Source: an uncultured Verrucomicrobiales bacterium (GTDB lineage: Bacteria; Verrucomicrobiota; Verrucomicrobiia; Limisphaerales; UBA1100). Taken from it: a DNA stretch of 41,261 nt. Positions 36,995 to 41,261 of this stretch are shown piece after piece. The DNA is taken from positions 1 through 41,261 of the forward strand of contig CAJWVY010000008.1 in assembly GCA_913048135.1 (NCBI GenBank), given 5' to 3'. Position 1 is the stretch's first letter; each line of letters starts with the position of its first letter. Under the pieces are notes generated by a model, which was given only the letters and a program-made list of their open reading frames with translations, had not been told where the DNA came from and did not search any database. A program made the translations under genes and the position numbers.

Positions 36995-38566
36995 ATGGCG
37001 GCTGAACAGAACCCTTCGGATACCGATTCCCAGTTTTATTTGCCCGCGGACACCTTCTTCCCGCGGCACGCCGACATCGGCCTGACCTACGACGACGTCA
37101 CCCTCGCCACGTTGTATTCTGACATCCTACCGCGCGACGCCGTGCTGGACACCTCCCTTGCCGAAGGCCTCGATCTGCATCTGCCCATTGTCTCCGCCGA
37201 CATGGATACCGTCACCGAACACCGCATGGCCATCGCCATGGCGCTCAACGGCGGCCTTGGTCTCATTCATTACAACATGACTGAGAAACAGCAGCTCAAG
37301 GAAGTGAGCCGCGTTAAAAATCATGTGCATGGGTTGATTCAAGAACCCATCACCGTCACGCCCGACCTGAGCGTGGGCGATGTGCTCGAGATCATTGAGG
37401 ACCGCCGTTACACCTTCAGCACCTTTCCCGTGGTGGACGGCAACGGCCGCCTTTCCGGTCTGCTCTCCGGCAGCGTGGTGAAACCACGCTACGCCGACCG
37501 CCACGTCGCCGAGGCCGCCATCCCACGCGACAAGGTTCATACCATAAAGCAAAAGGACCTTGACCCGGATCCAATTAAGGTGGCCGACCGATTTTTCACC
37601 GATCATCCCGGCATTAACAAACTGTTGGTGATGGATGACGATGACCGCCTGCACGGCCTGTTTACCTTGAGCGATCTAGAACGCATCACGCAGGAGGCCT
37701 CCGCGCAATTCAAACCCGCGCGGGACGGCCTGTTCCAGCTCCTGTGCGGCGCGGCCATATCTGCCACGCGCACCAAGAGTGGCGATCTTGATCGAGACCG
37801 CATTGTAAACCATGTCGGCGCCCTCGTGGATCGCGGGGTGGATGTCGCCGCCGTCTCCACCGCCCACGGTCACAGCGCCGGGGTCGGCGACACGGTCCGG
37901 CTCATTCGCGACGCATTCCCTGCCCTGCCCATCATCGCCGGTAACGTCACCAGCGGAGCCGGCGTGGAATACCTAGCCGCAGCCGGAGCCAATAGCATCA
38001 AGATCGGTCAGGGCCCCGGATCCATTTGCACCACGCGCGTGGTGGCTGGCGTAGGCATCCCTCAACTAACAGCCCTCTACACCGCCGCCCAAAGCGCCCG
38101 GTCCAAGGGCGTGACCCTCCTCGCTGATGGCGGCATCACCAAGAGCGGAGACATCGTTAAGGCGCTCACCCTCGCCGATGGCATTATCTGTGGCGGTCTA
38201 CTCGCAGGCTGTCAGGAATCGCCCGGCGACATCGTTGAGATTAGCGGCAAACGCTACAAACAATACCGCGGCATGGGCAGTCTCGCCGCCATGAAAGCCG
38301 GCAGTGCCGCGCGCTACGGGCATTCCAACAAGGACACCACCCGCAAGGCCACCGCCGAGGGTGTAGAGGCGCTCAAGGAAGTTTCCGGTTCAGTCGATCA
38401 AACCGTCCAGCAACTCGCCGGCGGCATCCAAAGCGGCATGGGATACTTGGGCGCGACCAATCTGGAAGCGCTCCGGAGCCAAGCCCGCTACATCCGCCTC
38501 AGCCCCGCTGGTCTGCACGAAAGCAAGCCGCACGACGTCATCGAGGTCAAAGCCACCCAGGCTTAA
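36995..38566 (+). CDS. guaB: IMP dehydrogenase with CBS domains
   Basis: [70 protein letters not shown]. Confidence 0.96.
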
Positions 38567-38787
38567 AACTGCACGGAATTATTCATGCGACCGCATTCCG
38601 GGCACAAAGACCGCTCCACATCCGCGTCATCGGTGTAAACATAATCGCATTCCTCACACCGGAACACCTGATCGCCGCTGGATTTTGGCGTGAAATCTGA
38701 TTCCGGCCGGCGCGTGTAATACGCCACCGCCGCCCAGCCCGTCAATAGCACGAGCAAAAACGCGAAAATCAATTCCGAAGGATTCAT
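38563..38787 (-). CDS. Small membrane-anchored zinc-ribbon/rubredoxin-like protein (74 aa)
   Basis: [24 protein letters not shown] single TM then CEEC-(x18)-CPEC; ATG overlaps the upstream stop (ATGA). Confidence 0.75.
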
Positions 38788-39533
38788 CGTGGAAATCGCT
38801 CCGTCACGTTGGTCACCGAAGTCGGATCCGTGTGCCATTGAAACACCAGCTCTCCGGAGGCGTACGCCGTGGAGTTGGTGATGGCGTTAAACCGGATTTC
38901 CTTCAACGCCAACTCCATTGCTGCGGCATCGGCCGGTGCGTGCCCGGACTCGGCTAGTAAGACTCCGTTCATGACGCGCCCCATGGAATCCACCAACACC
39001 TGCACACGGGTCGGCCGCAGGAAGGAGTCGTGTTCCCACGCTGCTTTCAACACAACCGCCCCAACCAATGTGCGCTCAGCCAGGCCTCCTCTTAAAACCA
39101 ATCGGCTCCCCTCTTTCGGGCGCAGTGGCGGCACGCTGATACGCGTGAGCTTCGGTACGGGTTTTTCAAACGAACGAAATTCAGGTACGGGATTTTTCTC
39201 CAAGGCTTCATGAATAATCGTCTCCACCACGTTGGTTTCCGGTGGCAATGGAATATCCGGCGGGGTCCAGCGGGCGAATTGATGTTGCAAGGATTTAGGT
39301 TTCAGCCAGACGGCGGAAAATCCGTTTGTGCGCGGTTGCCCCAGAGACATGGGCCCTTCCAAGGCCAGTGCCTCCACAAGCGCAGGGTCCACTTGCACCA
39401 GCGATGCTTCATCACGGTTTCCTTGGTCAGGCTTGCCGGAAGATACCCACCACAGGAGCACGGCCTGCACCCCGAACACCACCGCCACCCACCAACCCCA
39501 TTGCGAGGATTCGCTGGAGTCCGATTCGTTCAT
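38784..39533 (-). CDS. TonB-like energy-transducer-family protein (divergent)
   Basis: Single N-terminal TM (WWVAVVFGVQAVLLWWV), proline-rich middle, C-terminal VQVLVDSMGRVMNGVLLAESGHAPADAAAMELALKEIRFNAI as in TonB C-terminal domains; follows exbD-like gene. Confidence 0.7.
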   Translation of the reverse strand: MNESDSSESSQWGWWVAVVFGVQAVLLWWVSSGKPDQGNRDEASLVQVDPALVEALALEGPMSLGQPRTNGFSAVWLKPKSLQHQFARWTPPDIPLPPETNVVETIIHEALEKNPVPEFRSFEKPVPKLTRISVPPLRPKEGSRLVLRGGLAERTLVGAVVLKAAWEHDSFLRPTRVQVLVDSMGRVMNGVLLAESGHAPADAAAMELALKEIRFNAITNSTAYASGELVFQWHTDPTSVTNVTERFPR

Positions 39534-39952
39534 TCGAATAACCTTGGACGTGCCGCCAACCAGGTTTGGCGTACACCTACGGTTTGCGCGGCGTCCGCCA
39601 AGCGCGTGATTTTTTCATACGAAACGGACTTGTCCGCTTTTAATACCAACAGCAAACCGGATTTCCCTGCCTGTTTCGCCAACTGCCCCAATTGCTTTTC
39701 CAATTCCGGCAACTCGATTTGTTGATTCCGAAAATACAACCGTGCCTGATGATCCATCGCCACCACGGTGGAATGAGAAAACCCCTTGGGCATCCCTGAG
39801 CCGCCTTCTGGCAACCGCACCAGCGATGCTCCCTCGGTGAGCAACAAAGCCGAGTTGGACAACAAATAAAAGAGGAGCATGAACATCACCCCCACCAACG
39901 CCACTGCCGACGGTGCATCGCATAAAAATTGATGACTGCGCTTGAACCTCAT
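39530..39952 (-). CDS. ExbD/TolR-like protein (divergent)
   Basis: Short N-term, single TM VALVGVMFMLLFYLL, periplasmic domain LLVLKADKSVSYEKITRLADAAQTVGV typical of ExbD. Confidence 0.82.
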   Translation of the reverse strand: MRFKRSHQFLCDAPSAVALVGVMFMLLFYLLSNSALLLTEGASLVRLPEGGSGMPKGFSHSTVVAMDHQARLYFRNQQIELPELEKQLGQLAKQAGKSGLLLVLKADKSVSYEKITRLADAAQTVGVRQTWLAARPRLFE

Positions 39953-40623
39953 AATTCCTCAAACAATTCCGGCCCAGCTTCCTCTACTTCGGGTTTCGCT
40001 GGCAACACCGTCTTACGCCGACCCCGACGGGCCGGACCCTCAAGTTCACTCACCATCCGCAAGGCCCGCAAACCGGCCTTCTCCATATCAATCACGATAC
40101 TACCCACCACTGCCACCAAATGATTATACCCAACGAAGCACGGCACTCCGACTGCCAGGCCCAGAGCCAGCGGCATCATGGCCTTGGCAAAATGAGCGTG
40201 ATGATCGGTGATCACCGTTTCGCCCGTTTCCATAAATCCCAGCACTGCGCCCAACAACCCTAGCAACGGTGCCACCTGCCCCAGCGTAGCCAGGACCCCA
40301 AGCCGTTGCTCCAAACGTGCCACTTCTTCGCTGCCTTGTTGACCCAGAATTTCCTTCACCTCCTCGCGGGCCAACCGGTGGTTTTCCAAAACCGTCTTCA
40401 CAACACGCGCGGTCGGGCTAGGGGTGGCGTCGCAGATGCCGATGGCTTCGACGAGGTTGTTTTGGCTGAGCACGTTTTTCAAACCGCCCAGCAGTGCGGT
40501 GGTGTTGATCTGCACGCGGTGATAGGTGAGGCGGCGTTCCACAAACACCACCACCCCCAACGCGCTGGCGGCCAACAGCACCCACACCATCGGCCCGCCC
40601 TGCAGCAATGTCGCAGCTAGCAT
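39949..40623 (-). CDS. ExbB/TolQ/MotA-like protein (divergent)
   Basis: VWVLLAASALGVVVFVERR, GVLATLGQVAPLLGLLGAVLGFM, GLAVGVPCFVGYNHL. Confidence 0.9.
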   Translation of the reverse strand: MLAATLLQGGPMVWVLLAASALGVVVFVERRLTYHRVQINTTALLGGLKNVLSQNNLVEAIGICDATPSPTARVVKTVLENHRLAREEVKEILGQQGSEEVARLEQRLGVLATLGQVAPLLGLLGAVLGFMETGETVITDHHAHFAKAMMPLALGLAVGVPCFVGYNHLVAVVGSIVIDMEKAGLRALRMVSELEGPARRGRRKTVLPAKPEVEEAGPELFEEL

Positions 40624-40730: not shown

Positions 40731-41111
40731 ATGGACCAGCCAGACCAACTTCGCGAACTGTTTCGCATGCAGAAATCCCTCAACGAACGCATTGGCGTGC
40801 ATACTGACGGTATGACCGATGAGCAGAAAACCGAGTGGGTGCTCAACTACTCACGCGCCATGACGCAGGAGATTGCCGAGCTCACCGACAGTGTGCCTTG
40901 GAAGTGGTGGGCCAAATACCAGAAGCTCGATGAGCAAAACGCCCGCGTGGAGGTGGTGGATCTGTTCCACTTCCTCATTAGCCTGGCCCAAGTACTGGGC
41001 ATGAGCGCGGATGATGTGTTCGAGGCGTACATGAAGAAAAACGAGGTTAACTTCCAGCGTCAGGACAGCGGCTATACGGAAAAGGACGAAAACGACTCCA
41101 AACACATTTAA
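40731..41111 (+). CDS. Dimeric dUTPase / all-alpha NTP pyrophosphatase-like protein
   Basis: EIAELTDSVPWKWWAKYQKLDEQNARVEVVDLFHFLISLAQVLGMSADDVFEAYMKKNEVNFQRQ (ExxE...ExxD helices, KNxxNxxRQ). Confidence 0.85.
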   Translation: MDQPDQLRELFRMQKSLNERIGVHTDGMTDEQKTEWVLNYSRAMTQEIAELTDSVPWKWWAKYQKLDEQNARVEVVDLFHFLISLAQVLGMSADDVFEAYMKKNEVNFQRQDSGYTEKDENDSKHI

Positions 41112-41116
41112 CCCCA

Positions 41117-41261
41117 ATGCCCGCCGCCACGCCACCGCCCGAGCATCTGCGCCAGGAGGTGCAGAACGTGCTCATCGGAGAGACGGAAATCGCTGGGCGT
41201 GTGCGTGAATTGGCAGCGGAGATTGAGCGCGATTACGCCGACAAAGATTTGCTAATGGTGG
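41117..41261 (+). CDS. Probable hypoxanthine phosphoribosyltransferase, N-terminal fragment cut by window end
   Basis: MPAATPPPEHLRQEVQNVLIGETEIAGRVRELAAEIERDYADKDLLMV resembles HPRT N-termini. Confidence 0.6.
   Translation, partial: MPAATPPPEHLRQEVQNVLIGETEIAGRVRELAAEIERDYADKDLLMV

Follow-up and report, generated by a model that had tools for sequence, protein, structure and literature searches.

A Verrucomicrobiota Ton-like operon suggests a natural 'motor' that whole lineages no longer run on protons

The operon and its neighbours

The window, the whole stretch of 41,261 nucleotides analysed here, comes from contig CAJWVY010000008.1 of an uncultured Verrucomicrobiales bacterium (assembly GCA_913048135.1) and carries near its end a four-gene operon on the reverse strand. 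The genes follow one another as exbB-like, exbD-like, tonB-like and membrane-anchored zinc ribbon, and all three junctions are ATGA overlaps. The reading frames, 4-bp overlaps and residues given in an earlier reading of the letters alone (the sequence-only reading) were all correct. The features are as follows, TM standing for transmembrane segment.

39949-40623, reverse strand: exbB-like gene, 224 aa, MotA/TolQ/ExbB family (PF01618; orthologues in the order at 41-99% identity; HMMER match to TolQ/ExbB structures)
40246-40248, reverse strand: ExbB-like Ala126 at the E. coli T148 position (HMMER alignment to 5sv0)
40183-40185, reverse strand: ExbB-like Lys147 at the E. coli E176 position, not diagnostic (HMMER alignment to 5sv0)
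40168-40170, reverse strand: ExbB-like Leu152 at the E. coli T181 position (HMMER alignment to 5sv0)
39949-39952, reverse strand: ATGA overlap of exbB-like and exbD-like genes
39530-39952, reverse strand: exbD-like gene, 140 aa, TM Asp missing (PF02472; model of the periplasmic domain)
39890-39892, reverse strand: GGG codon, Gly21, at the E. coli ExbD Asp25 position (HMMER alignment)
39530-39533, reverse strand: ATGA overlap of exbD-like and tonB-like genes
38784-39533, reverse strand: tonB-like gene, 249 aa, with N-terminal TM, linker and TonB-like C-terminal domain (TonB_C matches of relatives; model)
39465-39467, reverse strand: TonB-like Gln23 at the TonB His20 position (alignment with the E. 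coli TonB TM)
38784-38787, reverse strand: ATGA overlap of tonB-like and zinc-ribbon genes
38563-38787, reverse strand: gene for a 74-aa protein, one TM followed by a CxxC...CxxC zinc ribbon (family alignment; weak matches to zinc-ribbon models)

The family assignments of the first two genes held in profile searches, both scoring far above the curated cut-offs (ExbB-like against PF01618, 62.2 bits versus 22.9; ExbD-like against PF02472, 52.2 versus 25.4). The solved structure with the top-scoring HMMER sequence match to the ExbB-like protein is TolQ. The ExbD-like protein has the single N-terminal TM and the periplasmic fold of its family, and the model of its periplasmic domain matches E. coli ExbD (8p9r) with a TM-score of 0.83 on the target. 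The TonB-like protein of the window is itself above no Pfam cut-off; TonB_C is matched at E<=0.01 by 13 of its 35 relatives, and every one of the 12 best PDB matches to its model is the C-terminal domain of TonB or of a TonB homologue (best E 0.012), which with moderate strength predicts a TonB fold for the C-terminal domain. Together, the Pfam and structure matches confirm that the first three genes encode ExbB-, ExbD- and TonB-CTD-like proteins. The fourth protein gives weak matches to many zinc-ribbon models, and in its family alignment C45, C48, C63 and C66 as well as Y52, T53, D54 and D55 are invariant; judging from an Arg-rich stretch after the TM, the ribbon probably faces the cytosol.

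The IMP dehydrogenase gene (guaB; 36995-38566, forward strand) is convergent with the operon and overlaps its end by 4 bases, and MazG/dUTPase-like and hpt-like genes lie divergently on the other side (40731-41261, forward strand). With neighbours named from our own reading of the sequences, a guaB-cluster gene is the downstream neighbour in 26 of the 80 named loci of the order, and hpt (11) or a MazG/dUTPase-like gene (7) is the divergent one. This looks like conserved synteny within the order; for a functional tie between the operon and purine metabolism, it is no more than a lead.

The missing aspartate and the pore positions

The conserved Asp of proton-driven 5:2 motors (ExbBD, TolQR, MotAB) is absent from the TM of the window's ExbD-like protein, where Gly21 stands in its place. 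In the HMMER alignment to the solved Serratia ExbD (7ajq_F), LVGVM pairs with FIDVM and Gly21 falls on the Asp25 position. A sideways misalignment of the TM was ruled out by the agreement of the HMMER pairwise alignment with two multiple alignments; the HMMER alignments to solved structures do not depend on the E. coli reference sequences of our multiple alignments. In E. coli ExbD, the Asp pair is required and D25N is inactive (PMC11658791), and the Asps face a ring of pore Thr residues (PMC12215075). This Thr ring, formed by T148 and T181, is likewise not present in the window's ExbB-like protein, which has Ala and Leu at the two positions; the alignments to solved structures bear out all three replacements as first proposed.

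The sequence-only reading went further and considered the whole proton pathway lost. This stands for the ExbD Asp and the Thr positions of the window's ExbB but is otherwise overstated. E176 is missing from two of the three Asp-bearing ExbB paralogues of the same genome (Ala and Ile), and it is therefore no marker of function here; in the order clade, its column is variable (Q52 E27 K11 R5). At the T148 column, 87 of the 103 clade members have Thr and another nine Ser (T/S in 96/103), T181 is T/S in 50/103, and apart from the window's family only a few others have lost both. The TonB residue is weak evidence as well: the His of the TonB TM (SHLS motif) is indeed absent from the window's TonB-like protein, but His20 is a contact residue, touching ExbB Ser34/Trp38 in the structure from E. 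coli (PMC12215075), and its absence alone does not amount to loss of the proton path.

No replacement carboxylate conserved in the ExbB or ExbD TMs was found in the clade; more broadly, across its 103 members no TM column of either protein is conserved as Asp, Glu, His, Lys or Arg, the E176 position excepted. With the Asp gone and no carboxylate replacing it, pmf-driven rotation of the known type is unlikely.

Conservation and repeated loss

ExbB-like orthologues (>120 bits) are present in nearly all of the 58 relatives, with the exbD-like gene adjoining them and the TonB-like and zinc-ribbon genes following. The Asp column is non-Asp in 52 of 52 ExbD orthologues of the order (G32 A12 C3 S3 V1 I1), and neither Asp nor Glu occurs there in the enlarged order clade of 103 sequences (G58 A17 C13 S9, others 6). 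As a control, the Asp is kept in 30 of 30 ExbDs sampled from other operons of same-order genomes, these being the best-scoring ones, so that the sample leans towards canonical members. Separate genomes with 91-99% ExbB identity share the loss, which rules out an assembly error. Between close species of a genus, dN/dS is 0.03-0.16 for exbD, 0.05-0.08 for exbB, 0.11-0.29 for the TonB-like gene and 0.07-0.13 for the zinc ribbon; the frames are intact and overlapping and the gene order is kept across dozens of families, while the ExbD and TonB-like sequences are poorly conserved between families. The intact operon is held under purifying selection, which supports the original judgement that the locus does not look like decay. 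The sequence-only reading had allowed that relatives with intact residues might expose this copy as a lone degenerate. Asp-bearing relatives do exist, in other orders, but the lone degenerate is refuted by the conserved Asp loss among order relatives and the low dN/dS. At seven loci whose operons group with the window's order, MAG titles such as 'Akkermansia muciniphila', 'Klebsiella pneumoniae' and 'Proteobacteria' look wrong.

The four-gene operon extends to other Verrucomicrobiota, among them Kiritimatiellae and Lentisphaeria. In members not belonging to the order clade, the ExbD Asp column reads D42 N22 C7 S3 G2, and a further class-level set, Opitutales-like by gene content, gives D13 N11 S1 L1. 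In the latter set, the ribosomal-protein cluster carries the zinc-ribbon gene after rplQ, and several genomes have exbB-exbD ~35 kb from it; that the gene for the TM zinc ribbon stands alone behind rpsD-rpoA-rplQ (L208-L243, e.g. L216:328-555) hints at a role tied to housekeeping. In one family (L379-L390), the operon's ExbD has diverged strongly and reads LLDL (Asp) or GVNL (Asn) by member. In one class family, ExbBD at first seemed to occur without the zinc ribbon, but the exceptions were divergent zinc ribbons overlooked by the profile and found in place downstream of exbD and the TonB-like gene; a few genomes still have no detected zinc ribbon, so that co-occurrence is not strict. The sequence-only reading had suggested that another energy or regulatory input might involve the zinc-ribbon partner: the gene is genuine and widely linked, but since Asp-bearing operons have it too, it is neither a marker of Asp loss nor a stand-in for proton drive.

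The history of the loss was traced on two trees, one from FastTree (184 rows) and one from IQ-TREE (103 rows), both built without the Asp column and the second also without the three ExbB columns. A single branch separates the order clade from the remaining rows (SH-aLRT 99). Parsimony needs 16 changes between Asp and non-Asp on the FastTree tree and again 16 on the IQ-TREE tree, many of them Asp-to-Asn, and well-supported branches of the former force at least 11. Parsimony alone gives no direction; with canonical Asp-bearing ExbDs as outgroup, the Asp is probably ancestral and was lost repeatedly.

Other residues vary with the Asp. A hydroxyl at T181 is found in 42/42 Asp-bearing and 79/137 Asp-less members, that is, lost in 0/42 versus 58/137, and T148 is lost in 7 Asp-less and 0 Asp-bearing members. 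The His of the TonB-like TM is present in 33/42 Asp-bearing members, in 25/102 of the order clade (Gln in 60) and in 5/22 Asn members, the TM having been located automatically and some rows being noisy. When phylogeny is respected, ~2.7 independent pairs show Asp and T181 changing in the same direction and 0 in the opposite, too few pairs for significance. The pattern would be expected if coupling had been abandoned and the remaining residues then drifted.

A putative uncoupled complex, its rivals and its relatives

From these data, a Ton-like complex without proton drive can reasonably be inferred, and we think it somewhat better than an even bet that the complex is uncoupled from the proton gradient and serves as a trans-envelope scaffold, or as a signal relay, with a cytosolic zinc ribbon. 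By analogy with homologues, from which the stoichiometry is taken, an ExbB pentamer would surround an ExbD dimer; the TonB-like arm would extend into the periplasm, with the membrane-anchored zinc-ribbon protein on the cytosolic side. The ancestor of the phylum's copies was probably a normal proton-driven Ton-like motor with Asp, pore Thr and TonB His. The Asp would have been lost in several lineages and across the window's order as sampled, pore Thr and TonB His drifting afterwards, and selection would retain the complex for a role needing no proton-driven rotation. The invariant or near-invariant ExbB positions cluster in the cytosolic helices, and their conservation, together with that of the zinc ribbon, indicates a cytosolic interface. 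Most likely the complex would be a passive scaffold spanning the envelope, or would relay signals between its cytosolic parts, the zinc ribbon and the ExbB helices, and its periplasmic ones, the ExbD and TonB domains. Counting against the uncoupled complex, the pore Thr ring is just partly lost in most of the order, and the co-loss of Asp and T181 falls short of significance under phylogenetic control.

The leading rival is a mixed motor, still proton-driven, in which the Asp-less ExbD sits in the ExbB pentamer beside an Asp-bearing ExbD encoded elsewhere. The sequence-only reading had advised looking for a canonical exbBD set elsewhere in the genome, and such genes are there: three further ExbB-ExbD pairs have the Asp and both Thr positions intact. 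Other PVC motor clusters, too, pair different tolR-like genes (PMC12204202). We nevertheless find a mixed motor unlikely, as none of the examined loci has a second exbD in the operon and ExbB has also lost pore Thr positions (both of them in the window) that a shared motor would be expected to preserve. The genome also holds a flagellar MotA/MotB pair: an extra ExbB match on contig 49 (L093:3865-5614) is MotA, followed by MotB with its Asp and a fliD-like gene, and represents a flagellar stator.

Alternatively, the complex could still be ion-driven through a relocated coupling residue, as in GldLM, which sets a precedent for a differing carrier position. The candidate would be Gln116, a near-invariant new polar residue in TM2 of the clade's ExbB; with no conserved charged or His column in the TMs apart from the variable E176 position, this path seems to us improbable. 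The natural Asn substitutions resemble the inactive laboratory D25N, and with canonical Ton pairs in the same genome, the Asp-less complex might act on them as a brake or decoy in a dominant-negative-like manner. We give this little credence: the ExbB-like protein and canonical ExbB share only ~30% identity, at which mixed rings are unlikely, and the operon brings a TonB-like arm and a zinc ribbon of its own. That a redundant Ton operon is slowly decaying would fit the lost key residues and the divergence of ExbD and the TonB-like protein between families, but it is very improbable and already largely refuted by the low exbD dN/dS, the intact overlapping frames in a conserved order, and the strong conservation of the zinc ribbon and ExbB cytosolic helices.

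The uncoupled complex may reach beyond the order. In its fullest form, which we hold tentatively and at slightly less than an even chance, a phylum-wide Ton-like complex has repeatedly turned non-motor and would be a pore-filled, uncoupled ExbBD scaffold that ties the membrane zinc ribbon on the cytosolic side to the TonB-like arm in the periplasm; among 5:2 complexes it would be the first natural 'pseudo-motor'.

Among known systems, the operon resembles ExbB-ExbD-TonB in its three protein families, the exbB-exbD-tonB order and the folds of the ExbD periplasmic and TonB-like C-terminal domains, but differs in lacking the TM Asp and, in the window, the pore Thr, in having Gln for TonB His20, and in the extra membrane zinc-ribbon gene. 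It recalls TolQ-TolR-TolA through the TolQ match of its ExbB-like protein, but the window locus has neither Pal/TolB genes nor an equivalent of Asp23. GldL-GldM is a 5:2 complex without the usual dimer-subunit Asp, its charged carrier residing in the pentamer subunit GldL; the present complex, whose 5:2 form is presumed from homologues, shares the absence of that Asp, whereas no conserved charged carrier was found in the pentamer subunit of the window's clade. The PVC vWA force transducers, with vWA domains on TolQ/TolR-like motors that keep the Asp and Thr ring (PMC12204202), are likewise uncharacterised PVC envelope complexes on a TolQR-like motor; unlike them, the window operon combines a TonB-like domain with a zinc ribbon and lacks the Asp. 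Searches of open-access papers turned up no description of this four-gene operon or of any ExbD clade lacking the Asp.

For ExbD, TolR and MotB, the intramembrane Asp counts as both defining and essential, and the 'proton channel' annotation of PF01618/PF02472 pairs can be wrong. Having lost this Asp repeatedly, one orthologous operon presents a set of natural variants on the same scaffold (Asp, Asn, Ser, Cys, Gly, Ala), which makes it testable whether 5:2 complexes have functions independent of proton flow and which pore residues, changing only after Asp loss, are tied to coupling. In rumen Lentisphaeria, six loci show Cys in place of the Asp yet keep the His of the TonB-like TM, and at several of the rumen loci exbB overlaps at its start with a TPR gene.
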